Below, piece by piece: positions 3,747 to 13,503 of a stretch of DNA of 23,837 bases. The position numbers were made by a program, and so were the translations under genes. Source of the DNA: a virus; IMG/VR virus record IMGVR_UViG_3300035670_001245, positions 1 to 23,837 of that record; one strand, 5' to 3'. How positions within the stretch are numbered: the first letter of the stretch is position 1; every line of letters starts with the position of its first letter. Below the pieces are notes generated by a model. That model was not told where the DNA came from. It was given only the letters and a program-made list of their open reading frames with translations, and did no database searches.

Positions 3747-4003
3747 TGCCATACATGACCAATGGTAAGAGAGACTACAAGAAGGAGCTCTCTTGGGAAA
3801 AGAAAAAGAAACCGACACGAGTAAAAGATCGAGCAGCTCGTAATGCAGCTCGTAAGAAGATGGGATTAAAAGTAGGTGATCCAAGACAAGTAGATCACAA
3901 GACTACACTTAAGAATGGTGGTTCTAATAGTAGAAGTAACCTCAGAGTTGTTTCTGCTAAAACTAATTTAACAAAAGAGGCAAGAAGGAAACGTAATGGC
4001 TAA
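3746..4003 (+). CDS. HNH-family endonuclease (85 aa)
   Basis: This is a small, very basic protein. The first half is Lys/Arg-rich. The catalytic core is at residues 50-74: VDH (D50-H51), then NGGSNSRSNLRVV with N65, and SAKTN with N74. This matches the H-N-N/H metal-binding beta-beta-alpha fold of HNH nucleases; the last His is replaced by Asn, which is common in phage versions. Such enzymes nick or cut DNA and in many tailed phages are encoded near terminase genes and needed for packaging. Free-standing homing nucleases look alike. The start overlaps the preceding stop as TAATG. A second Met at residue 4 is an alternative start. Confidence 0.75.
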   Translation: MPYMTNGKRDYKKELSWEKKKKPTRVKDRAARNAARKKMGLKVGDPRQVDHKTTLKNGGSNSRSNLRVVSAKTNLTKEARRKRNG

Positions 4004-4340
4004 AATAAGTATTAATGACATAGGATCAGGTTACGCTAGTACGACAGCTTTAAATGTATCTTTTAATCAAATAGAAGATCAATTTAATAATAAAGTTCTA
4101 TATCGAGACAATCCAACTGGTGAACCTAATCAGATGTTGAATGATCTTGATATGAACAACTATGATCTCTTAAACGTAGGAGGTCTATCAGCTACAAGTT
4201 TAACAGTTAATGGTGTAGACTATTTAGCTTCAATGCAAACAGTTTACAACAATTATACCAGTATCACCCAGAGTGTTACTGTTAGCACAGCTTCACCTTC
4301 AGGTGGTAGTGATGGTGATATTTGGTTTAAAATAACTTAA
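3996..4340 (+). CDS. Tail-fibre or appendage protein, short (114 aa)
   Basis: The N-terminal part (MAKISINDIGSGYASTTALNVSFNQIEDQFNNKVLYRD) and NQMLNDLDMNNYDLLNVGGLS resemble the attachment and shaft-start regions of podoviral tail fibres, with the typical 'D-M-N-x-x-x-L-L-N-V' strand of triple-helical fibres. The C-terminal STASPSGGSDGDIWFKIT is a common end of such fibre modules. At 114 aa it is far shorter than a full fibre, so it may be an adaptor to which the larger fibre proteins dock. It overlaps the nuclease gene by eight bases and has AAGGA six bases upstream of its ATG. Role by similarity of pattern only. Confidence 0.6.
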   Translation: MAKISINDIGSGYASTTALNVSFNQIEDQFNNKVLYRDNPTGEPNQMLNDLDMNNYDLLNVGGLSATSLTVNGVDYLASMQTVYNNYTSITQSVTVSTASPSGGSDGDIWFKIT

Positions 4341-4359
4341 TTAAGAGGAGAAGTAAACA

Positions 4360-4755
4360 ATGGCAGCTTTATCAGACTACGCAGAGAATCTGGTGCTCAA
4401 CTGGTTAATGACCACTGGTTCTGCTACAAGACCAACAGCATGGTATGTATCATTACATACAGGTTCACCTAACGATGCAGACGATGGTGCAAATGAAATT
4501 TCAGGTAATGGTTATTCACGTCAAGCATTAACAGTAGATACAGCATCAGGTACAGGTGGTACAACATCTAATAATGCTAACGTAACTTTCACTGCAAGTG
4601 GAGGCGACTGGGGCACAATTTCTCACATAGGTATCTATGATGCTTCTACATCAGGTAACTTATTATGGCATGGTTCTATGACAGCATCTAAAACGATTGC
4701 TGATGGAGATACATTACAGTTTAACACTGGCAACATTGACCTTACAATAGCGTAA
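4360..4755 (+). CDS. Phage tail-fibre-family virion protein (131 aa)
   Basis: This compact beta-rich protein of 131 aa fits a family often annotated as phage tail fibre or minor tail protein. The pattern seen includes an N-terminal helix (ALSDYAENLVLNWLMTTG), then WYVSLHTGSPND, GNGYSRQALTVD, WGTISHIGIYDA and GNLLWHGSMTASKTIADGD. The family pattern is 'W-Y-V-x-L-H/F-T-x-P', 'Y-x-R-Q' and 'H-x-G-I-Y-D-A', all present. It is probably part of the adsorption apparatus, next to other fibre genes. The start has GAGGAG nine bases upstream. Whether it sits on the tail or on the capsid cannot be told from sequence. Confidence 0.65.
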   Translation: MAALSDYAENLVLNWLMTTGSATRPTAWYVSLHTGSPNDADDGANEISGNGYSRQALTVDTASGTGGTTSNNANVTFTASGGDWGTISHIGIYDASTSGNLLWHGSMTASKTIADGDTLQFNTGNIDLTIA

Positions 4756-4765
4756 GGGAACTTAA

Positions 4766-5440
4766 ATGGCAGAAGGCTATCGAATAACGGAGGTCAGTGA
4801 TTTTCGGATCACTGAAGATGGTCTCTCTCGGTCTACTGAAGGTTTTAATGAGGGAGAGGTTTCCCTATCAGCTTCAGGGAGTGTAGCTAGTGTAGGTTCT
4901 TTAACCACACATGCAGATGCAAGTTTAAGTACACAAGGCTCCATGCTCAATGCAGGAGTAGGTGTCTTATTTGGAGTAGCAGCAGTTAATGCAACAGGTA
5001 GCGTAACAGCACTACCTTTAATTACACAGTTAGCAAGTTCTGCTTTAAATGCTACAGGTACTACAACTTCTGATGGTATAAGAATACGATACGGAGTATC
5101 AGCTTTATCATCAGCAGGATCTTTATCAAGTGCAGCATTAAAGATTTTATATGGAGTTGTTGAAGGAGGAAGTACTGAAGTATTTAGAATTACCGAAGCA
5201 GGTGATTCAAGAGTACTTGAAAATGGTACTGATGTAAGAACAAGTATACAAGCTGAAGGTAACATTATAGCAGCTACTTTAATTGGTGAAGGTGATAAAA
5301 CATTATTCTCATCTGAACCTTACTACAAAGATGCAGGAACTTGGAAAGACTTTATTCCTTATGTTAAATGGAATGGGGCTTGGACTGGTAATATTAGAAT
5401 TTATAAACACACTAACGGAGCTTGGAAAAGGAGTTATTAA
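4766..5440 (+). CDS. Repeat-containing virion appendage protein (224 aa)
   Basis: The ends carry related Arg-Ile-Thr-Glu units: YRITEVSDFRITEDG at residues 5-19 and FRITEAGDSRVLENG at about 141-155. Between them lie Ala/Ser/Gly/Leu-rich repeats such as VNATGSVTA, ALNATGTTTS and ALSSAGSLSS, spaced about 20-30 residues, which suggests a stacked beta structure. The C-terminus (GTWKDFIPYVKWNGAW...YKHTNGAWKRSY) is a terminal module often seen on phage fibre or decoration proteins. There are no catalytic motifs and no membrane segment. It stands between two fibre genes, with AGGGAA before the start. Virion surface role inferred from context and composition. Confidence 0.6.
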   Translation: MAEGYRITEVSDFRITEDGLSRSTEGFNEGEVSLSASGSVASVGSLTTHADASLSTQGSMLNAGVGVLFGVAAVNATGSVTALPLITQLASSALNATGTTTSDGIRIRYGVSALSSAGSLSSAALKILYGVVEGGSTEVFRITEAGDSRVLENGTDVRTSIQAEGNIIAATLIGEGDKTLFSSEPYYKDAGTWKDFIPYVKWNGAWTGNIRIYKHTNGAWKRSY

Positions 5441-5443
5441 AAG

Positions 5444-6457
5444 ATGGCAAACATTAAAATCTCAGACTTAACAGCAGCAGCCTCAGCAGCAGATGCTAAT
5501 GAGTTTGAAATAAACGAAGCAGGTACCAGTAAGAAAGTTACTGGATCACAAATTAAAGCATACGTCAATTCTGCAGACGGAGCACTGGCATCTAAGAATA
5601 CAGTAGCTACAGCAGATATTGATAATGATGCAGTAACTACAGCTAAAATATTAGATGGAAATGTTACTACAGCTAAATTAGCTGCTGATGCAGTTGATGG
5701 TACTAAGATTGCAGATGATGCTATCGGTAATGAGCATATAGCAGCAGGTGCTGTAGGTACTACAGAATTAGCAAATGCATCTGTAACTGTTGGTAAAATC
5801 TCTGCAACAGGTACGGCTTCAGCAAATACTTACTTAGCAGGAGATGGTTCTTGGGGAGCTATTGCAGCAGGAGCAACATTAAGATCACAAATCTTTACAG
5901 CACCAGGAACTTGGACTAGACCTGCTAATACTAATAGAGCTAAAGTAACTGTTATTGGAGGTGGAGGAAGTATAAATCAACCTAGTTACCCAGGACCTGG
6001 TAATCCTGGTGGAACTTCTTCATTCGGTAGTTTAGCATCAGCAACGGGGGGAGGATATTCATCTGTACCTAACGCACCTACTGTTTATGGGGCTTCTGGT
6101 AATGGAACAGTATCTTCAGGTACTTTAATTTATGGTGGTGCAGTTGATGGTGAAATACCTGGACCACTTAGAAATACTATAGGTGTACATAATGGAATGA
6201 TGGCTATAAATGGTGTTGTTGGACATTTAAGAGGTGCTAATTTTAATGCTACTAATTACAGTGTTAATGGAGGAATGATGGCAGGAGTTGGAGCATCTAA
6301 TGGTATTTCTGCAGGCTTTGGTGGTGTAGCTATTGGAGATGTTCCTGTTAGCAATCCTCAAGCTATTACTATTGGAGCAGCAGGAAATGGTCCTGGTCCT
6401 AATAGAAGCGTAGCAGGTAGTAGTGCGGGTGTTGTTGTTGTGGAATGGGTAGAATAA
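5444..6457 (+). CDS. Tail fibre with glycine-rich receptor-binding tip (337 aa)
   Basis: The N-terminus (KISDLTAAASAADANEFEINEAGTS) is typical of short phage fibre proteins. Residues about 45-125 are a shaft of roughly 10-residue repeats built on D-A-V-T-T-A-K-I / N-V-T-T-A-K-L / D-A-V-D-G-T-K-I. The segment FTAPGTWTRPAN...KVTVIGGGG (about 146-175) is the start of a glycine-rich adhesin-type domain. It continues to the C-terminus with many Gly and Pro-Gly motifs (PGPGNPGG, IPGPLRN, GPGPNRS). Such tips bind host surface receptors and evolve quickly. Three 2OG-Fe(II) oxygenase domains follow one gene later, so modification of this Gly/Pro-rich tip is a conceivable link (inference). Confidence 0.75.
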   Translation: MANIKISDLTAAASAADANEFEINEAGTSKKVTGSQIKAYVNSADGALASKNTVATADIDNDAVTTAKILDGNVTTAKLAADAVDGTKIADDAIGNEHIAAGAVGTTELANASVTVGKISATGTASANTYLAGDGSWGAIAAGATLRSQIFTAPGTWTRPANTNRAKVTVIGGGGSINQPSYPGPGNPGGTSSFGSLASATGGGYSSVPNAPTVYGASGNGTVSSGTLIYGGAVDGEIPGPLRNTIGVHNGMMAINGVVGHLRGANFNATNYSVNGGMMAGVGASNGISAGFGGVAIGDVPVSNPQAITIGAAGNGPGPNRSVAGSSAGVVVVEWVE

Positions 6458-6479
6458 AATAATTAACGGAGAAATTTAG

Positions 6480-6752
6480 ATGACAAAAAAAGCTTTAATA
6501 AATCCAGGACAAACACAAATTTATTATACTTCTGGATGGGAATTAGTAGATGGGGAATATAAACCAATTACTACTGATATTCAAAATGGTCAAAGAGTAG
6601 CTGAAGTAGTTGAGTTAGGATCAGAATTCGAAGTAGCAGCTCCTTTATATTGGAAAGATTGTGCTGATAATGTTAAAGCAGACATGTATTATTTAGATAC
6701 TACTACTGATACAATTACTGCAGTACCTGAAAGTGCACCATATCCAGGATAA
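6480..6752 (+). CDS. Small protein linked to the tail fibre, unknown (90 aa)
   Basis: The soluble, acidic protein begins MTKKALINPGQTQIYYTSGW and ends in YYLDTTTDTITAVPESAPYPG. It looks beta-rich and lacks catalytic motifs. Its position right after the receptor-binding fibre and before the oxygenases fits a fibre chaperone or a minor fibre component, but this is inference from order only. The start has GGAG eight bases upstream. Confidence 0.55.
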   Translation: MTKKALINPGQTQIYYTSGWELVDGEYKPITTDIQNGQRVAEVVELGSEFEVAAPLYWKDCADNVKADMYYLDTTTDTITAVPESAPYPG

Positions 6753-6774
6753 TTAATATAAAGAAAGGATAATC

Positions 6775-7887
6775 GTGACAAACGATTTTGATAAAAATGG
6801 ATACGTCCATTTAAAAGAGTTTTTAGATTTAGATAATTGTAAAGAACTTACTAAAGAGTTAAACAAATATATAGAAGAGGGTAAAACAAATAAAGATCCT
6901 CAATGTCCTATATCAGAAGCAATTCATGGCACAGTTACATTTGATAAACTACTAGAAGATTTATTACCTCACTTTGAAAAACATTGTGGTAAAAGATTAT
7001 ACCCTACTTATTCTTATGCTAGACTTTATAAACCTGGTGAAGAACTAAAGAAACATACTGATAGACCTGCCTGTGAAATATCAGCAACAATAACATTAGG
7101 TTTTGAGGGCGATGTATGGTCTATTTATATGGCAGGTAATAAAATAGATATGCAAGTAGGTGATGCTGTATTGTATCGTGGTATGGATGTTGAGCATTGG
7201 CGAGAAAAATATACTGAAGGTAAATGGCAGGCTCAAGTATTTCTACACTATGTAGATGCAGATGGACCTCATGCAGATCAAAAGTATGATGGTAGAAAAT
7301 GTTTAGGAATAGATAAAAATAATCATAATATAGAAAATAAATGTTTACAAGATTATGCTCTATTTGAAAATCATATATCGGATATATTATGTGATATGTT
7401 AATTGATAAATGTACTAAAGATAATATAGATAAAATGCCCCCTTATATAGGAAATGGAGATACTACAAATATTAACTTAAATGTTAGAAATACGGAGCGA
7501 GTGAGATTATCTTTTAATCAAGGAATAGGAGCTACATTAACTGCAACTGCATTAAATGCTAACCACTATTGGTGGAAATATCATATTACTCACTCAAACC
7601 AATCAGAATTTTTAATATATAAACCAGAAGGGCACTATAAAGCCCATGTAGATACTTTTCATTCTCATAGTAATGACATAAGAAAATTAACAGCTCTTGC
7701 TTTCCTTAATGATGATTATGAAGGAGGTAAGTTTTGGATTAACCCTAATGGTAATGTAGTTTACCCAGTACAGAAAAAAGGAACTGTATTAGTATTTCCT
7801 AGTTATATGGTTCATGGTGTTGAGCCAGTGACAAAAGGTGTAAGATATAGTGTAGTAACATGGTTAGAAGGACCCTACTTTAAATAA
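6775..7887 (+). CDS. Tandem two-domain 2OG-Fe(II) oxygenase (370 aa)
   Basis: Two double-stranded beta-helix dioxygenase domains lie in one chain. Domain 1 (about 1-180) has the iron motif H94-x-D96 (KKHTDRP) and a distal His at 141 (VEHWREKY). Domain 2 (about 190-370) has H291-x-D293 (YKAHVDTFH), the distal H348 in FPSYMVHGVEPV, and R357, which fits the arginine that binds the 2-oxoglutarate C5 carboxylate. Domain 2 resembles the prolyl-4-hydroxylase-like group common in aquatic phages. Family enzymes use Fe(II), O2 and 2-oxoglutarate to hydroxylate proteins, nucleic acids or small molecules; the substrate here is unknown. It starts with GTG at 6775, backed by AGAAAGGA. Placement behind the fibre genes suggests modification of a virion protein (inference). 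Confidence 0.85.
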   Translation: MTNDFDKNGYVHLKEFLDLDNCKELTKELNKYIEEGKTNKDPQCPISEAIHGTVTFDKLLEDLLPHFEKHCGKRLYPTYSYARLYKPGEELKKHTDRPACEISATITLGFEGDVWSIYMAGNKIDMQVGDAVLYRGMDVEHWREKYTEGKWQAQVFLHYVDADGPHADQKYDGRKCLGIDKNNHNIENKCLQDYALFENHISDILCDMLIDKCTKDNIDKMPPYIGNGDTTNINLNVRNTERVRLSFNQGIGATLTATALNANHYWWKYHITHSNQSEFLIYKPEGHYKAHVDTFHSHSNDIRKLTALAFLNDDYEGGKFWINPNGNVVYPVQKKGTVLVFPSYMVHGVEPVTKGVRYSVVTWLEGPYFK

Positions 7888-7895
7888 GGATAAAT

Positions 7896-8462
7896 ATGAT
7901 AGATAAATGTATTGGTTTGTTTCCAAAAGTTTTTAATGATGATTTTTGTAAGTTAGTAATAGAAGCTTTTAATAAAAATGAAGCTTTAGGTTTTGCAAAG
8001 AATAGATTAGAAAGAGAGAATGTAAATTCTAATTATAAAGATGATACCTCAACATTTATTACAGAACTAACTAATCAATCTTTTACTCAAGAACTTAGTA
8101 ATGAGTTTCATAAAGTACTGCAAAAAAGCTTAAATGAGTATGCTAATAAGTATAGTGTACTAAAAGAGGGAGACCCTTTATTTGTTAGAACTATAAAACT
8201 ACAAAAAACAAAACCTGGACAAGGATATCATATTTGGCACTATGAACATTGTTCACTAGATCGAGATAGAGTTTTAGCATGGACTGCTTATATGAATGAT
8301 GACTTTGAGGCAGGTGAAACAGAGTTTCTTTATCAACAATACAGATACAAACCTAAAAAAGGAGATCTTATGATTTTTCCTGCAGGGTTTACACATACAC
8401 ATAGAGGGAACCCACCCATAGGTGGAGACAAATATATTATAACAGGATGGATAGAATTTTAA
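7896..8462 (+). CDS. 2OG-Fe(II) oxygenase, single domain (188 aa)
   Basis: This third dioxygenase domain follows the tandem enzyme by eight bases with AAGGAT as ribosome site. The iron motif is H115-x-E117 (YHIWHYEH, with Glu in place of the usual Asp). The distal part reads KKGDLMIFPAGFTHTHRGNPP, with H167 or H169 as the third ligand. K179 sits where Arg often binds 2-oxoglutarate (GGDKYIITGW). The 'FTHTHRGNPP...KYIITGW' ending is typical of a phage and cyanophage oxygenase group. The Glu ligand and Lys may indicate altered activity, or may simply be the norm for this subfamily. It is probably cotranscribed with the tandem oxygenase. The substrate is unknown. Confidence 0.8.
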   Translation: MIDKCIGLFPKVFNDDFCKLVIEAFNKNEALGFAKNRLERENVNSNYKDDTSTFITELTNQSFTQELSNEFHKVLQKSLNEYANKYSVLKEGDPLFVRTIKLQKTKPGQGYHIWHYEHCSLDRDRVLAWTAYMNDDFEAGETEFLYQQYRYKPKKGDLMIFPAGFTHTHRGNPPIGGDKYIITGWIEF

Positions 8463-8463
8463 T

Positions 8464-9057
8464 ATGACAACTCCAAAAGAAGTAGAACAACGACTAAACT
8501 CACATGAAGAACTGTGTGCCGAAAGGTACGCTAATATCCATGCTCGTATAGACAAAATAGAAGCTGTTCTTAATAAACTTCTTTGGACTATCATTATAGG
8601 ATTTGGTAGTATTGTTGTATCTACTATTATTATCAATAAAGCAGAAGCAGCAGAAACAACAATAAATTATAAGGGTCAACCAGTCCCCTCTGCGATGGCA
8701 CCTTCGATGTCTGCTTTCTCTCAAGATGTTTGTGCTGTACCTGCCTCAGGTGGTATTAATACAGGTGTATTTGCTGTGTCAGGTGGAACTGTTCTCACAG
8801 ATGATAACTGTGTACGGATTAAACTAGCAAAAACTCTTAATGATCTAGGTCTTAAGGTTAGTGCTGTATCAGTGCTCTGTGAGGACATTAAAGTATGGAA
8901 TGCTATGGAAATGTCTGGAAGCCCCTGTCCTGTGGGAGGAGCCCTAGGATCAGCAGCAAGAGCTGCTTGGTATGAACTATATCCTGAAAGGTTTACAAAG
9001 CTATATGGTAAAGATTTTACGCTTCCTACTTATACTAAACCTCTTAACTTGGAGTAA
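8464..9057 (+). CDS. Membrane-anchored protein of the lysis/envelope module (197 aa)
   Basis: Residues 1-38 form an amphipathic coiled-coil-like helix (RLNSHEELCAERYANIHARI). One membrane segment follows at about 39-57 (LLWTIIIGFGSIVVSTIII), then NKAEAAET, which could also be a signal-peptidase site. The remaining 135 residues contain four Cys (in FSQDVCAV, DDNCVRI, SVLCEDI and GSPCPV), as expected for an oxidising periplasm. The N-terminal layout recalls XhlA-type small phage membrane proteins. The C-terminal domain resembles no enzyme I know and contains no muramidase motif. Its 3' end encodes the next gene's signal peptide in another frame. A role in holin function or in the cell envelope is inferred from its neighbours. 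Confidence 0.6.
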   Translation: MTTPKEVEQRLNSHEELCAERYANIHARIDKIEAVLNKLLWTIIIGFGSIVVSTIIINKAEAAETTINYKGQPVPSAMAPSMSAFSQDVCAVPASGGINTGVFAVSGGTVLTDDNCVRIKLAKTLNDLGLKVSAVSVLCEDIKVWNAMEMSGSPCPVGGALGSAARAAWYELYPERFTKLYGKDFTLPTYTKPLNLE

Positions 9058-10036
9058 TGCTTATGCTTGGTACTGTACATACACACCTGATCAAAATGGT
9101 TTCATGGTTGAAGACTCGTTGGTCTGCGTTGGTATCGAACCCTCAGTTGCCATTATGGACTACTGGTGTGTCTCGTATCAACCAAATGATCCTATCTGTC
9201 AAAACTACAGTAGGTGCGTGGACCAAACAGAGCAAAGAACAACTGCTTGCACAGAGCCTTTCACTACTGGTTTCGTTAATGAAAGTCGTTTCTATTCTTG
9301 TAATATTGACAGTTGGAGTGCTTGGACTGTTAGTTCGTCTCATTGTGAACCTTTACCACCTACTTGTGTCGAAAGTCAAGAGGAACAAACAATAGCATGT
9401 CAGGATGGTTACACAGGGTCTATAACACAATCAAGATCGACAACTTGCTCGACTCCTTATTCAGACCCAATGACTGGTCCTTGGATTACAAGCTCCAATT
9501 CGTGTACCCTAAAAGCAACAGATCCTACAAGCATAGAGAGTCCATTGAATCCTGCAAGCCCATTGAGTCTAGATCAACCAGACCCAGTTGGGATTACTTC
9601 AGAACCTGTGGATATGAATCCAGTTCCAATGAACAATCCAGTGGAACAAGAAATGGCGATTCCTCAAGTACAGGAAAAACCAACAGAGACAAATACAACG
9701 AAGCCTTCGACATCAAGCTCTACGGAGACGAAGGAAGACAAGCAAGAGGCAAAACAAGAACAGAAGATAAAGACAAAGGAAAACGAGACAGTCGTTCCTG
9801 GGTTTGGGATTGCTATTGATTTTGCATTGATAGAGCAGCCACAAGGCTACTATCAAGAACAATTAACTAACCTTTTAGACTTAGAACAGGAACAGAACTA
9901 TGCCAGAGAACAAAACCTTCTCCTTGACCTTATCTCCCCAAATGGTATTGGGCTTAATCTTAACGATTCTGCCAATAATAGGTGGAGGAGCTTATTACAC
10001 GATAACCCTTTACAATCAGATGCTTTCGGTAATTGA
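9005..10036 (+). CDS. Secreted Cys-rich protein with tandem repeats (343 aa)
   Basis: The start at 9005 gives a classic signal peptide (MVKILRFLLILNLLTWSNAYA, cleavage after AYA). A longer frame from 8972 is possible but has a poor leader. The mature N-terminal part has many Cys. Two tandem repeats follow, CVDQTEQRTTACTEPF...SRFYSC...SSSHC and CVESQEEQTIACQDGY...SRSTTC...SSNSC, a thrombospondin-like spacing of Cys with W/S motifs. Residues about 185-270 are a Pro/Ser/Thr/Glu/Lys linker, and the C-terminal part is Gln/Leu-rich. It overlaps the preceding gene by 53 bases and the next by 137. Acting in the periplasm or at the outer membrane, it could aid lysis or block superinfection. The family is not identified. 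Confidence 0.65.
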   Translation: MVKILRFLLILNLLTWSNAYAWYCTYTPDQNGFMVEDSLVCVGIEPSVAIMDYWCVSYQPNDPICQNYSRCVDQTEQRTTACTEPFTTGFVNESRFYSCNIDSWSAWTVSSSHCEPLPPTCVESQEEQTIACQDGYTGSITQSRSTTCSTPYSDPMTGPWITSSNSCTLKATDPTSIESPLNPASPLSLDQPDPVGITSEPVDMNPVPMNNPVEQEMAIPQVQEKPTETNTTKPSTSSSTETKEDKQEAKQEQKIKTKENETVVPGFGIAIDFALIEQPQGYYQEQLTNLLDLEQEQNYAREQNLLLDLISPNGIGLNLNDSANNRWRSLLHDNPLQSDAFGN

Positions 10037-10313
10037 AGAGTTTGATAGTTCTAAGATAGAAGCTTTAGAGCATCAGATGAAGACACAACAAGAACGCTAT
10101 ATGGAGTTAATGCAGACAAATGTTAAGTTACAAGACAAGGCAAGCGATGCTTTTGTGTTGGCTAAAGAAACAGCAGCAATCGCAAAAGGAAGCCAAAGAG
10201 AAGTTGAAGCAAGTTTAAACGCTATGCGTAATGAAGTAAGAGCTGAACTCGAAACAGTCAATGCTAAGATGAAAGCATTACAAACAGCAACAACAAACCC
10301 ACTAGGAAGGTAA
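9900..10313 (+). CDS. Spanin-like coiled-coil membrane protein (137 aa)
   Basis: One membrane segment lies at residues about 14-36 (MVLGLILTILPIIGGGAYYTI). A long Ala/Glu/Gln/Lys-rich coiled coil follows (about 45-130, including KIEALEHQMKTQQERYMEL and REVEASLNAMRNEVRAEL). An N-terminal inner-membrane anchor with a coiled-coil periplasmic domain is the plan of an inner-membrane spanin (Rz type), and the neighbours are a holin-like protein and a lysozyme. No lipoprotein partner (o-spanin) with a lipobox is seen in the overlapping frames. The first 137 bases overlap the end of the preceding gene in another frame, as spanin genes often do. AGGAA lies nine bases before the ATG. Confidence 0.6.
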   Translation: MPENKTFSLTLSPQMVLGLILTILPIIGGGAYYTITLYNQMLSVIEEFDSSKIEALEHQMKTQQERYMELMQTNVKLQDKASDAFVLAKETAAIAKGSQREVEASLNAMRNEVRAELETVNAKMKALQTATTNPLGR

Positions 10314-10315
10314 CA

Positions 10316-10804
10316 ATGTTAAGTATACTATCAGGAATATTAGGATTCGCTACATCAGGTTTACCAAGTGTATTAGACTTCTTTAAGAATAAAGCAGATC
10401 AAAAGCATGAACGTGAGATGGCATCTTTACAAACAGAGCGTGAATTAGCTCTAGCTGAAAAAGGCTTTGCATCTCAAGCAAGAATAGAAGAAGTAAGAAC
10501 AGATCAAATAGAAATGCAAACCTATGCTCAAGAAAGAGTAGCATTATATGATCATGATAAGAAACTACAAGAAGGTGCTAGTGGTTGGGTTAAGAATCTA
10601 AGTGCTTCTGTAAGACCTGTTGTGACCTATATGTTTGTATTCTTATTATTGTTTACAGATGTAGCAGGTATGATATGGGCTATTAAAACAGGTGTTGACT
10701 TTGAAACAGCATTAACATTAATATTCTCAGATGAAGAGATGGCAATCGTAGCTTCTATCATAGGCTTCTGGTTTGGATCTAGACACTGGGATAAGAAGAA
10801 GTGA
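10316..10804 (+). CDS. 3TM-type holin-like protein (162 aa)
   Basis: The protein begins with a hydrophobic segment (LSILSGILGFATSGLPSVL). A long charged helix follows (25-90, QKHEREMASLQTERELALAEK), then two membrane segments, VVTYMFVFLLLFTDVAGMIWAI (102-123) and MAIVASIIGFWFGSRHW (142-158). The end '(S)VRPVVTYMFV...[15 protein letters not shown]' closely fits the 'holin of 3TMs' family linked to phage and gene-transfer-agent release. It would sit in the inner membrane and time lysis by releasing the lysozyme, whose gene overlaps its stop codon by three bases. AGGAAGG precedes the ATG. Confidence 0.8.
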   Translation: MLSILSGILGFATSGLPSVLDFFKNKADQKHEREMASLQTERELALAEKGFASQARIEEVRTDQIEMQTYAQERVALYDHDKKLQEGASGWVKNLSASVRPVVTYMFVFLLLFTDVAGMIWAIKTGVDFETALTLIFSDEEMAIVASIIGFWFGSRHWDKKK

Positions 10805-11286
10805 TCACAGGTGAACTTGGGATCAAACTTATTAAGCAATTTGAAGGCTGTCATTTCAATCCTTATCTTTGTCCTGCTTTACTTTGGACTGTGGGGTATG
10901 GTCACGTTCTCTATCCTGAACAGGCTACCCTCCCTTTAGCAAGACGAAAGGAAATAAGACTTGATCCAAAAGATAACAGAGTATGGAGCCAAGAGGAGGT
11001 TGATGATTTACTTAAGAAAGATCTTAAGAGATTTGAGTTGGGAGTTTCTCGTTATATCACTGTTCCTCTTAAGCAGTGTGAATTTGATGCACTTGTATCA
11101 TTTGCATTTAACCTAGGAAATGGAACTTTACAAAGAAGTAGTATTCGTTCTAAGTTAAATCGAGGAGAGAAAGAAGAAGCGATGGACACTCTTCTAAAGT
11201 ATTGTAGAGCAGGTGGTAAAGTCCTACGAGGATTAGAAAGAAGACGAGCAGCAGAAGTTAATTTGTTTTTCATGGAGAGTAAATAA
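10801..11286 (+). CDS. Endolysin, GH24 lysozyme
   Basis: This muramidase cleaves the beta-1,4 bond between N-acetylmuramic acid and N-acetylglucosamine in peptidoglycan. The catalytic layout is E15, C24 and T30 ([24 protein letters not shown]), with spacings of 9 and 6 residues exactly as E11, D20 and T26 of T4 lysozyme. Cys in place of Asp occurs in the P22-like branch. The '[23 protein letters not shown]' and '[22 protein letters not shown]' blocks are also typical, and 161 aa is normal length. It starts with GTG at 10801, overlapping the holin stop. There is no export signal, so release depends on the holin. The stop overlaps the next start (TAATG). Confidence 0.92.
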
Positions 11287-11420
11287 TGCCACTAAAGAAA
11301 GGTAAGTCACAAAAGGTTATCTCTGAAAATATTCGTAAAGAGATGAAATCAGGTAAACCACAGAAGCAAGCTATTGCTATTGCATTAAGCAAAGCAGGTA
11401 AATCTAAGAAGAAGAAGTAA
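11286..11420 (+). CDS. DUF6496-like small basic protein (44 aa)
   Basis: The ATG at 11286 overlaps the lysozyme stop as TAATG. The product begins [20 protein letters not shown] and continues [23 protein letters not shown]. The 'MPLKKG-S-K-I--NI-KE---GKP-KQA-AIAL--AGKSK' pattern is that of a small phage and bacterial family of unknown function (DUF6496, by memory of its pattern). It is very basic with one central helix, so nucleic-acid binding is plausible. It lies just ahead of a set of similarly small basic genes before the terminase, which could serve packaging or be DNA-associated virion components (inference). Confidence 0.75.
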
Positions 11421-11421
11421 T

Positions 11422-11700
11422 ATGGCTAAAGATCCTAGACTAGAAAGAGCAGGAGTATCAGGTTATAACAAACCTAAACGTACACCAGGTCATCCTACTA
11501 AGTCACATGTTGTTGTTGCTAAGTCAGGAGATCAAGTAAAACTTATACGTTTTGGTCAACAAGGCAAACAAGGAGCAGGAGCTAATCCTAAGACTGCTTC
11601 TGAGAAAGCAAGACAAAAGTCATTTAAAGCTCGTCATGCTAAGAATATAGCTAGAGGTAAGATGTCAGCAGCATACTGGGCTGACAAAGTTAAATGGTAG
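11422..11700 (+). CDS. Conserved basic phage protein, unknown (92 aa)
   Basis: The strongly basic protein contains GDQVKLIRFGQQGKQGAGANPK and KARQKSFKARHAKNIARGKM, ending MSAAYWADKVKW. This block is highly characteristic of a small protein found in many aquatic phages, with no assigned function that I know. Its basic C-terminal half suggests contact with DNA or RNA. It starts one base after the preceding stop and overlaps the next gene by seven bases, so the four small genes before the terminase are probably translated as a unit. Confidence 0.75.
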   Translation: MAKDPRLERAGVSGYNKPKRTPGHPTKSHVVVAKSGDQVKLIRFGQQGKQGAGANPKTASEKARQKSFKARHAKNIARGKMSAAYWADKVKW

Positions 11701-11882
11701 ATGACTCACCCTGTAATGGGGTGTGTCGAATGAAAGGTACTCGATGTATATCATGCCATCGCACCTTTGAAGATTTAAATCAATGGTTGTACCTTACTCG
11801 TGAAGAACGTTTAAACAGAATGGAGCAGATTAAAAATGAGCTTAGTAGAAAATATAAACAAAAGAAAGAAAGCAGGAACTAG
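11694..11882 (+). CDS. DUF1289-like zinc-binding small protein (62 aa)
   Basis: Residues 5-22 have the pattern SPCNGVCRMKGTRCISCHRT, giving Cys at 7, 11, 18 and 21. The helix EDLNQWLYLTREERLNRM follows. This is the 'C-x-G-x-C-R...C-x-x-C-x-R-T-x-x-(E)-x-x-W-x-x-(M/L)-(S/T)-x-x-(E)-R' pattern of DUF1289, a predicted zinc-finger-like family widespread in Proteobacteria. The role is unknown. It overlaps the preceding gene by seven bases. A GTTTAAAC palindrome falls in the coding sequence at 11809. Its end overlaps the next small gene. Confidence 0.7.
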   Translation: MVDDSPCNGVCRMKGTRCISCHRTFEDLNQWLYLTREERLNRMEQIKNELSRKYKQKKESRN

Positions 11883-11967
11883 CAGAAGTAAAAAGAAATC
11901 TACTATAAGTGCTAAAGCTTATAAAGATATGCAGAATAACTGGGGCAAAAAGAAGAAGAAAGCTTAA
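11836..11967 (+). CDS. Small basic protein upstream of terminase (43 aa)
   Basis: ATG at 11836 with GGAG about 11 bases upstream, and stop TAA at 11965-11967 directly abutting the terminase ATG. The product begins MSLVENINKRKKAGTSRSKK and ends KDMQNNWGKKKKKA. About a third of its residues are Lys or Arg. It overlaps the end of the DUF1289-like gene by 47 bases in another frame. Highly basic micro-proteins before a terminase may condense or guide DNA, but no family assignment is certain. Confidence 0.65.
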   Translation: MSLVENINKRKKAGTSRSKKKSTISAKAYKDMQNNWGKKKKKA

Positions 11968-13503
11968 ATGTCAAAAGCTAGTATAGATCAAATAAGAGAA
12001 GCAGCAGAAGCTGATCTCTTAACGTTTATTAAGTTAGTAGCTCCTCACTTAATGTTAGGTGCTATCCACGAAGAATTAATACAATGGTGGCAACGTCAAG
12101 ATGCTAAACAAAACCAATTAGTATTACTTCCTCGAGGACACATGAAGTCTAAGTTAGTAGCTTATAGAACTGCATGGTGGATTACAAAACATCCTGAAAC
12201 AACTATACTCTATGTTTCTGCTACTGCTGACTTAGCTGAAAAACAGCTATATGCAATTAAGCAGATTCTAGATAATCCAATATACAGACGTTATTGGTCA
12301 GATATGATACACCCAGAAGAGGGTAAACGTGAAAAGTGGGCAGTCGCTGAGATTGCAGTAGACCATCCACAAAGGAAATTAGAAGGGATTAGAGATGCTA
12401 CTTGTAAAGCTGTTGGGCTTACTAGTAATACTACTGGCTTCCACGCTGATGTTGTTGTCCTTGACGATATCGTTGTACCAGGTAATGCTTATACTGAAGA
12501 AGGACGAGAAAAGGTTGGAGCAGCATATAGCCAACTGGCTTCCATTGAAAACCCTGGTGCTTATGAGTGGGTTGTTGGGACTCGTTATCATCCTCGAGAT
12601 ATATATGATACTATGATCAATATGAAAGAGACTCTCTATGATGATAGTGGAGAACTTGTTTCAGAAGATCCAGTCTATGAATTGTTCCAACGAGTTGTAG
12701 AAACCAATGGTGAGTTTTTATGGGCTAAACAAATAAGAGCAGATGGTAAAGCTTTTGGATTTGATGCTAAAGAATTAGCAAGAATCAAAGCTAAGTATGT
12801 AGATAATACTCAGTTCTATGCTCAGTATTATAACAATCCAAATAGTAATGAGACAGCTCGTATCAATGCAGATAACTTTCAATATTATGATAGAAATGTT
12901 CTACAGAATAAAGAAGGTGATTGGTACATGCGAGATCGTAAACTTAATGTATATGCAGCAATCGACTTTGCGTTCTCATTAAGGAAGAAAGCTGACTATA
13001 CAGCGTTAGTTGTTGTAGGAGTAGATCATCAAGGGAACTTCTATGTTTTAGACATAGATCGATTTAAAACAGAACGTATTGTAGATTATTATAATCACAT
13101 TCTTACAGCATGGCAGAAGTGGGGCTTTAGGAAACTTAGAGCTGAAACCACAGTAGCTCAACAAACGATTGTTAAAGAGCTAAAAGAAAGTTACTTAAAG
13201 CCTAATGGCATACCTCTTTCTATTGAAGAGTTTAGACCTACTAGACATTTAGGTGATAAAGAAGAACGTGTAGGTGCAGTACTTGAACCTAAGTATGACA
13301 ACTTACAAGTATGGCATTATAAAGGTGGTAATTGTCAATCATTAGAAGAAGAATTAGTCATGACTCATCCACCTCATGACGACATAAAGGATGCTCTATC
13401 AAACGCTATAGCTATAGCTGTGATTCCTAAACAGCGAGTAGGAGCTTTTAGTGTAGGTAGAAATATAGTAACACACTCACGCTTTGGTGGTGTATCTTAT
13501 TAA
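11968..13503 (+). CDS. terL: Terminase large subunit
   Basis: The packaging motor cuts concatemeric DNA and pumps it through the portal using ATP. The ATPase domain comprises residues 1-220. It has a modified Walker A PRGHMKSK (55-62), Walker B DVVVLDD (161-167) and a GTRYHPRD block (204-211) near the coupling motif. The RuvC-like nuclease domain follows, with D333 in AAIDFAFS, E393 in RAETT, and D471/D472 and D475 in HPPHDDIKDALSNA. The length of 511 aa is in the normal range, with all catalytic residues present. The gene abuts a tiny basic gene and is 12 bases ahead of the portal gene. The relation to T7-like or P22-like packaging classes cannot be judged without a tree. Confidence 0.93.
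   Translation: MSKASIDQIREAAEADLLTFIKLVAPHLMLGAIHEELIQWWQRQDAKQNQLVLLPRGHMKSKLVAYRTAWWITKHPETTILYVSATADLAEKQLYAIKQILDNPIYRRYWSDMIHPEEGKREKWAVAEIAVDHPQRKLEGIRDATCKAVGLTSNTTGFHADVVVLDDIVVPGNAYTEEGREKVGAAYSQLASIENPGAYEWVVGTRYHPRDIYDTMINMKETLYDDSGELVSEDPVYELFQRVVETNGEFLWAKQIRADGKAFGFDAKELARIKAKYVDNTQFYAQYYNNPNSNETARINADNFQYYDRNVLQNKEGDWYMRDRKLNVYAAIDFAFSLRKKADYTALVVVGVDHQGNFYVLDIDRFKTERIVDYYNHILTAWQKWGFRKLRAETTVAQQTIVKELKESYLKPNGIPLSIEEFRPTRHLGDKEERVGAVLEPKYDNLQVWHYKGGNCQSLEEELVMTHPPHDDIKDALSNAIAIAVIPKQRVGAFSVGRNIVTHSRFGGVSY

Follow-up and report, generated by a model that had tools for sequence, protein, structure and literature searches.

Three predicted 2OG-Fe(II) oxygenases in a podovirus tail fibre cassette probably hydroxylate the phage's own fibre tip

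Described hydroxylases and the layout of the fibre locus

Viruses of eukaryotes hydroxylate collagen-like proteins that they themselves encode, and tandem oxygenase-fold domains are known from Tpa1 and OGFOD1. The closest described counterparts of the phage proteins considered here, AB (with domains A and B) and C, are bacterial and viral prolyl 4-hydroxylases (P4Hs), namely those of P. putida and B. anthracis, the vCPH of PBCV-1 and the algal P4H-1, which have the same beta-helix and H-x-D...H iron ligands and, like domain B and oxygenase C, an Arg or Lys ten residues past the distal His. The PBCV-1 viral prolyl hydroxylase is known here from its PDB title, as is the (Ser-Pro)5 substrate of the algal P4H, whose P-x-P spacing is also seen in the proline-rich tips linked to AB. 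Unlike these P4Hs, to which they are about 20% identical in sequence, AB and C are encoded in a phage fibre cassette, AB joins two domains in one protein and the activity is predicted. Tpa1 and OGFOD1 are two-domain prolyl hydroxylases and were among the top Foldseek matches of AB, which, compared with them, keeps the iron ligands in both domains; however, superposition of the whole models gave an rmsd above 20, suggesting that the domains are arranged differently.

Few unexplained genes are as common in marine phages as those for 2OG oxygenases, and published work relates them to host metabolism or DNA repair. A study of MEP401-type metagenomic genomes files PF13640 (6/99 genomes) and Sulfotransfer_3 (2/99) as metabolic genes (PMC10580990), and one on S-SCSM1 counts 24 such oxygenase genes, whose functions it describes as lacking specific study (PMC9602691). 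A third source proposes modulation of 2-oxoglutarate and refers to DNA repair; in it T4-GC 615 appears as a hypothetical gene that has a ferrochelatase domain (PMC3037559). No report of phage fibre hydroxylation was found in open-licence PMC full texts, including by the combination of phage, proline hydroxylation and receptor-binding protein. The cyanophage 2OG-Fe(II) oxygenases, including those annotated as ferrochelatase (phrog_2954, phrog_3531 and T4-GC 615), belong to the same families as A, B and C, but they are usually separate genes, as A and B are in S-CAM8, present in many copies, some of them far from fibres.

The window, meaning the whole stretch of DNA analysed here (23,837 bases), is a fragment of an uncultured marine podovirus, with a TerL 82% identical to those of the Methylophilales phages MEP401 and MEP402, which are placed in the Zobellviridae by their GenBank lineage. 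Its structural-gene region contains, all on the plus strand, the fibre gene (5444..6457), a small protein gene (sm6480, 6480..6752), the AB ORF (6775-7887), oxygenase C (7896..8462) and p8464 (8464..9057), separated by gaps of 22, 22, 8 and 1 bases. Residues 1-135 of the fibre form a conserved repeat stem and residues 156-337 a Gly-rich tip, the proposed substrate, which runs from a TWT motif to the end of the protein (5909..6454, 182 aa). The 90-aa product of sm6480, directly behind the tip, is a proposed tip accessory or chaperone. The upstream tail protein gene tip4766 (4766..5440, plus strand) and p8464 are the conserved upstream and downstream boundaries of the variable cassette, and neither co-varies with the tip or C.

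Downstream of C, the ORFs 8464-9057, 8972-10036 and 9900-10313 overlap one another and a gene that looks lysozyme-like by its sequence lies at 10801; the overlapping ORFs (8464-10313) are possibly part of a lysis cassette. A promoter and terminator scan of positions 3900-12000 gave no more sites than shuffled sequence.

A Gly-rich distal tip, as in the window fibre, is also found in Gp38-type adhesins (PF05268). In contrast to these adhesins, the window fibre has no Pfam match, PF05268 included, and its tip was modelled with low confidence (mean pLDDT 58, with values under 50 over much of the Gly-rich part). A second fibre type of the clade, in locus L116, which carries A and B too, scored 23.3 bits against PF05268, under the cut-off of 25.

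Families, ligands and predicted folds of the three oxygenase domains

The sequence-only reading of the window had described two tandem oxygenase domains in one gene, with HxD motifs at residues 94-96 and 291-293, and a third domain in the next gene, with HxE at 115-117; the ORFs agree with this description and the positions are exact. The AB ORF has a GTG start and encodes 370 aa. Domain A (6775..7302) contains H94 (7054-7056), D96 (7060-7062) and H141 (7195-7197), and domain B (7339..7884) contains H291 (7645-7647), D293 (7651-7653), H347 (7813-7815) and the basic residue R357 (7843-7845), at position H+10. The 188-aa oxygenase C contains H115 (8238-8240), E117 (8244-8246), H169 (8400-8402) and, also at H+10, K179 (8430-8432).

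The PF13640 profile covers domain B (67.8 bits, E 1.8e-18) and C (43.4 bits, E 7e-11), both above its curated cut-off of 27. Domain A had no PF13640 match in the Pfam search and gave just PhyH at residues 5-39, marginally over the cut-off. It is recognised by phrog_2954 and phrog_3531, both named "ferrochelatase", although no ferrochelatase Pfam profile was detected for domain A at E up to 0.1. Ferrochelatase is a doubtful identity for it: the domain has an invariant H-x-D...H triad and a 2OG-oxygenase fold model, and the name comes from PHROGs only, so this widespread annotation looks like a propagated error. Oxygenase C is matched by phrog_2297 and phrog_274, named DNA endonuclease and DNA endonuclease V, and for such C-like members these names are doubtful.

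Loss of the iron ligands in relatives, which the same reading had named as evidence against its proposal, was not found. The triads H94/D96/H141 and H291/D293/H347, together with R357, were invariant in 34 of 34 AB relatives (alignment A1), and H115, E117, H167, H169 and K179 in 36 of 36 C relatives (alignment A2), where the distal iron ligand is either H167 or H169, both being invariant in the 36 rows. The AB triads were also kept in the wider alignment A7 of 15 sequences, seven of them from other gene contexts. Since Glu replaces Asp in all the relatives of C, this substitution is a family trait and not a sign of decay. No conserved Arg or Lys was found in domain A at the usual spot past the distal His across the 34 aligned AB sequences.

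The AB model, built from the 34-sequence alignment (mean pLDDT 84), consists of two double-stranded beta-helix domains, each of which aligns to 2OG oxygenases with Z of about 16-18 over 149-177 residues. For domain A (residues 1-175) the structural matches included a Burkholderia 2OG oxygenase (Z 17.3), PHD2 (16.9) and ALKBH6 (16.0). Domain B (residues 189-370) matched the P. putida P4H-EF-Tu complex (Z 17.6, rmsd 2.9 over 176 residues), PHD2 with a HIF peptide (17.5), PBCV-1 vCPH (16.6) and algal P4H (15.8), its prolyl-hydroxylase neighbours in the PDB being 4iw3, 6yw3, 3hqr, 5c5t and 3gze; this is a likeness of fold only, and a fold match alone leaves the substrate unfixed. The top structural row was SnoN (Z 17.9), with a matched range that spans both halves of AB. 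Protein prolyl hydroxylases were the best structural matches of domain B. By sequence, a prolyl 4-hydroxylase was the best PDB match for AB and for C. Judged from their sequences AB and C are members of the 2OG-Fe(II) oxygenase superfamily, the fold of AB being predicted from its model.

Distribution of the cassette and proline content of the tips

The podovirus clade of the window was surveyed with contigs found by AB or C and with others chosen by gp80 or TerL regardless of oxygenases. In the contigs found by AB or C the clade order was tip, small protein, AB, zero to three further genes, C and p8464, and in the window's clade this cassette stands in place of other fibre modules; among the distant C relatives (L073-L111) the clade order was not present in all. 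The contigs chosen by gp80 or TerL included oxygenases with Gly-rich tips (L112-L120, L129, L140, L033 and L045, some of which represent one and the same contig or nearly identical ones), Gly-rich tips without oxygenase (L221, L225, L244, L253 and L258), oxygenases beside a fibre that is not Gly-rich (L202 and L203) and many loci with neither. PF13640 was absent from the whole genomes of MEP401, MEP402 and MW202697 (0/3). The proline content was 6.1% in 44 oxygenase-linked tips of the clade versus 1.8% in five oxygenase-free Gly-rich ORFs.

The extra genes tested were mostly more 2OG oxygenases (PF13640, PF13759 and DUF6445), and the L049 cassette carries a DUF6817 gene. Between or beside AB and C there were also a sulfotransferase with an overlapping APS-kinase-like gene (L050:6871-7982), a kinase-like gene with DUF4915 (L010:2208-3987) and an FkbM methyltransferase (L115:4153-4803). 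The ORF at L062:3063-3776 resembles the L050 sulfotransferase, a likeness taken from the start of the sequence alone.

The window tip has 40 Gly, 13 Pro and five Pro-Gly pairs. It had been read as rich in Pro-Gly, which holds for the number of pairs but not as an enrichment, since composition alone predicts 2.9 (P=0.13), and in the 44 clade tips the sum of Pro-Gly and Gly-Pro was 5.36 versus 6.79 expected. Pro-Gly as the target context was not supported either: in AB-linked tips Gly follows 131 of 465 prolines, about what their Gly content of 30.6% predicts, whereas P-x-P spacing occurs 104 times, 3.4 times the expectation. Pro-Gly was thus replaced as candidate target motif by proline in general and P-x-P.

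A second survey was made by three scans with tip alignments, giving loci L331-L489, many of them from phages in which the gene context is different. In several of these loci (L332, L334, L338, L341, L344 and L346) tip and small protein are again followed by AB, with zero or one gene in between. After tips lacking the TW motif and AB-less tips with less than 2.5 kb downstream had been left out, 166 tips with enough downstream sequence were reduced to 85 by clustering at 75%: 36 with AB within 3 kb, 36 without any oxygenase within 4 kb and 13 with another oxygenase only. The proline content was 6.7% in AB-linked tips (4.4-9.8) versus 2.2% in oxygenase-free tips (0.5-4.5; Mann-Whitney U test, p 1.8e-13), and 2.4% in those with another oxygenase only (1.0-4.0), with near-equal Gly contents of 30.6%, 29.3% and 28.4%, respectively. 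Tip queries A4 and A5 were drawn mostly from proline-rich tips, and query A6 was seeded with a proline-poor AB-less tip, so its 36 tips are no independent negative set and the comparison was split by scan. The first scan gave seven tips with AB versus three without (p 0.008 for the proline difference), the second 29 versus 10 (p 1.7e-6; lowest AB-linked tip 4.4%, highest AB-less tip 4.0%) and the third AB in 0 of 36.

The GC content of the locus does not explain this difference, which was seen in each of the four GC bins (p 0.05 to 3.6e-6); the other ORFs at these loci had 4.2% (with AB) and 3.7% (without AB) proline. In disjoint nearest pairs of AB-linked and AB-less tips, the AB-linked one was richer in proline in 36 of 36. 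Other residues also differed between AB-linked and AB-less tips, namely His (0.1 vs 3.6%), Ala (12.1 vs 8.0%) and Tyr (2.2 vs 4.6%), and likewise Asp, Arg and Glu.

A third survey, by AB itself, gave 54 new AB loci (26 of the 80 rows were already in earlier sets and were not counted), and 38 of them, in which 2.5 kb or more of sequence precedes AB, were the base for counting. A Gly-rich tip lies directly ahead of AB in 30 of the 38, 25 by the tip rule of the second survey and five by reading the misses (L529, L539, L542 and L547, and from its listing L548). Across the surveys the oxygenases are placed non-randomly relative to fibres. The other eight (L522, L523, L524, L525, L527, L536, L538 and L540) have AB apart from any fibre, within or close to the replication region: in L522 and L524 the neighbours are DNA polymerase and exonuclease, and in the other six the context was judged by neighbours of like size or sequence. 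A search of the contigs of seven of these exceptions gave no tip for six, all of them fragments (L522, L523, L524, L525, L536 and L538). In L490 and L491, contigs filed under bacterial genomes, AB is 56% identical and the C-terminal 195 residues of the Gly-rich ORFs contain 9.2 and 10.8% proline.

Of the 57 oxygenases in six large marine phage genomes, 16 lay no more than 6 kb from a Gly-rich ORF (rotation null mean 4.6, p 0.005) and six no more than 3 kb from one (p 0.14). By genome, the counts at 6 kb were 6/9 in S-CAM8, 5/10 in S-SSM5, 4/15 in HTVC008M and 1/7 in S-CAM1, with none in S-T4 and syn9; S-CAM8 and S-SSM5 share a common layout and a carbamoyltransferase and are not independent. 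The clusters near a Gly-rich ORF in S-CAM8, S-SSM5 and HTVC008M are like the window in this respect, and this nearness gives weak support to the fibre link. The syn9 oxygenase cluster (L274, 34478-45000) is near a tryptophan halogenase, and those of S-CAM8 and S-SSM5 (L269 and L273) are near the carbamoyltransferase, both being tailoring-type enzymes.

Fibre-tip hydroxylation and alternative roles

The conserved ligands, the matches of domain B, the cassette order, the co-variation described below and the proline excess together support hydroxylation of the fibre tip. We regard it as fairly likely that A, B and C are Fe/2OG hydroxylases acting on the phage's own fibre tip, with proline most likely as the main target, and judging from these sequence patterns the host-recognition protein of the phage is probably hydroxylated by the phage's own enzymes. 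Fibre hydroxylation as first suggested for the window gains from the kept ligands, from B and C changing in step with the tip and from the proline-rich AB-linked tips; counting against it are the eight of 38 AB loci away from a fibre, the oxygenases of L202 and L203 without a Gly-rich fibre, the lack of a conserved Arg or Lys in domain A and the other residues that differ between tips.

In the proposed mechanism the putative hydroxylases, encoded among the structural genes, would hydroxylate proline residues in those loops of the tip that are rich in both Gly and proline, during synthesis or folding of the fibre. In the enzyme set A is the constant part, and B and C, which change with the tip, probably read its variable part. 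The hydroxyls would make the Gly-rich loops stiffer or change how the tip contacts its receptor, and further groups may be attached to them in some relatives. Since oxygenase-free Gly-rich tips exist, the modification would not be needed for the fold. The genetic link to proline-rich tips offers a concrete and testable substrate for phage 2OG oxygenases. If it is true, many phages would rely for host recognition on a protein modification that requires oxygen and iron; this modification would be absent from fibres produced alone in a laboratory host and would escape predictions of host range made from fibre sequence.

Sulfotransferases, methyltransferases and carbamoyltransferases of known families act on hydroxyl-type acceptors, and by analogy the added genes of these three kinds suggest further decoration of hydroxyls. 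It is possible, but we hold it doubtful, that all this forms a widespread exchangeable module, in which tip-matched oxygenases would hydroxylate proline with or without other residues, the sulfotransferase with the APS-kinase-like protein, FkbM or, in cyanophages, the carbamoyltransferase would in some phages decorate the resulting hydroxyls and host range would be set by sequence plus modification.

Alternatively, tip subtype and oxygenases could travel as one recombination cassette, with proline content as a lineage trait and the enzymes acting elsewhere. The block is indeed exchanged between near-identical genomes: in L063, TerL, gp80 and p8464 are 98-99% identical to those of the window, but the tip differs and the oxygenase set consists of two B-type genes and C, with no A. 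The presence of AB also goes with tip subtype, the best BLAST neighbour having the same AB state in 81 of 85 tips, so that the events are fewer than the sequences and shared ancestry accounts for some of the signal. Pairwise distances were correlated across the 28 loci that have AB, C and a tip (36 before removal of near-duplicates), and in these Mantel-type correlations, which ignore shared ancestry and may be over-confident, the small protein was the tightest partner of the tip (r 0.81, n=27), followed by C (0.65), B (0.54) and A (0.20), while the flanks gave -0.04 (p8464, n=12) and -0.18 (tip4766, n=13). The value for C was 0.52 with AB partialled out and 0.26 with the small protein partialled out, and that for AB dropped to 0.01 with the small protein partialled out. 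Domain A lies between the small protein and B, nearer the tip, yet it hardly tracks the tip, and B and C, farther off, track it strongly, so linkage alone is a poor account of B and C. Moreover, the same pairing of AB and tip occurs in unrelated genomic contexts, and L527 has its AB in the replication region and yet carries a proline-rich Gly-rich tip (7.2% Pro) about 18 kb away on the other strand. On balance, passive co-transfer is an unlikely explanation.

Action on host targets, such as LPS precursors, EF-Tu or ribosomal proteins, for example to exclude rivals, would fit PDB titles that describe binding of EF-Tu by P. putida P4H and modification of the ribosomal protein Rps23 by Tpa1, and the sulfotransferase and FkbM methyltransferase genes in the cassettes of some relatives. 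However, a host target would not require B and C to track the phage's own tip, as they do, and we consider this role improbable. A role in DNA or RNA modification or repair, suggested by the eight AB loci in or near the replication region and by the ALKBH6 match of domain A, is very improbable given that most loci lie in the late fibre region and that the nearest PDB sequence relatives are protein hydroxylases. Steering of host nitrogen or energy metabolism through 2-oxoglutarate consumption, proposed for cyanophages in PMC3037559 and PMC9602691 and in keeping with the abundance of the same oxygenase families there, leaves the fibre-adjacent placement, the tip co-variation and the proline excess unexplained and is just as hard to credit.

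Two or three tandem Gly-rich tip ORFs were found in L009, L022, L026, L057, L060, L071 and L343, in some of which the small protein sits between the tips, as if alternative tips were stored. In a comparison of segment order (L012, L042, L043 and L052 versus L006 and L046), a segment of the AIE(V/Y)-x-P...VPVTVG type preceded a GGTSSFG block in some tips, while in others it was close to the C-terminus; from the sequences, this looks like an internal rearrangement of the tip.
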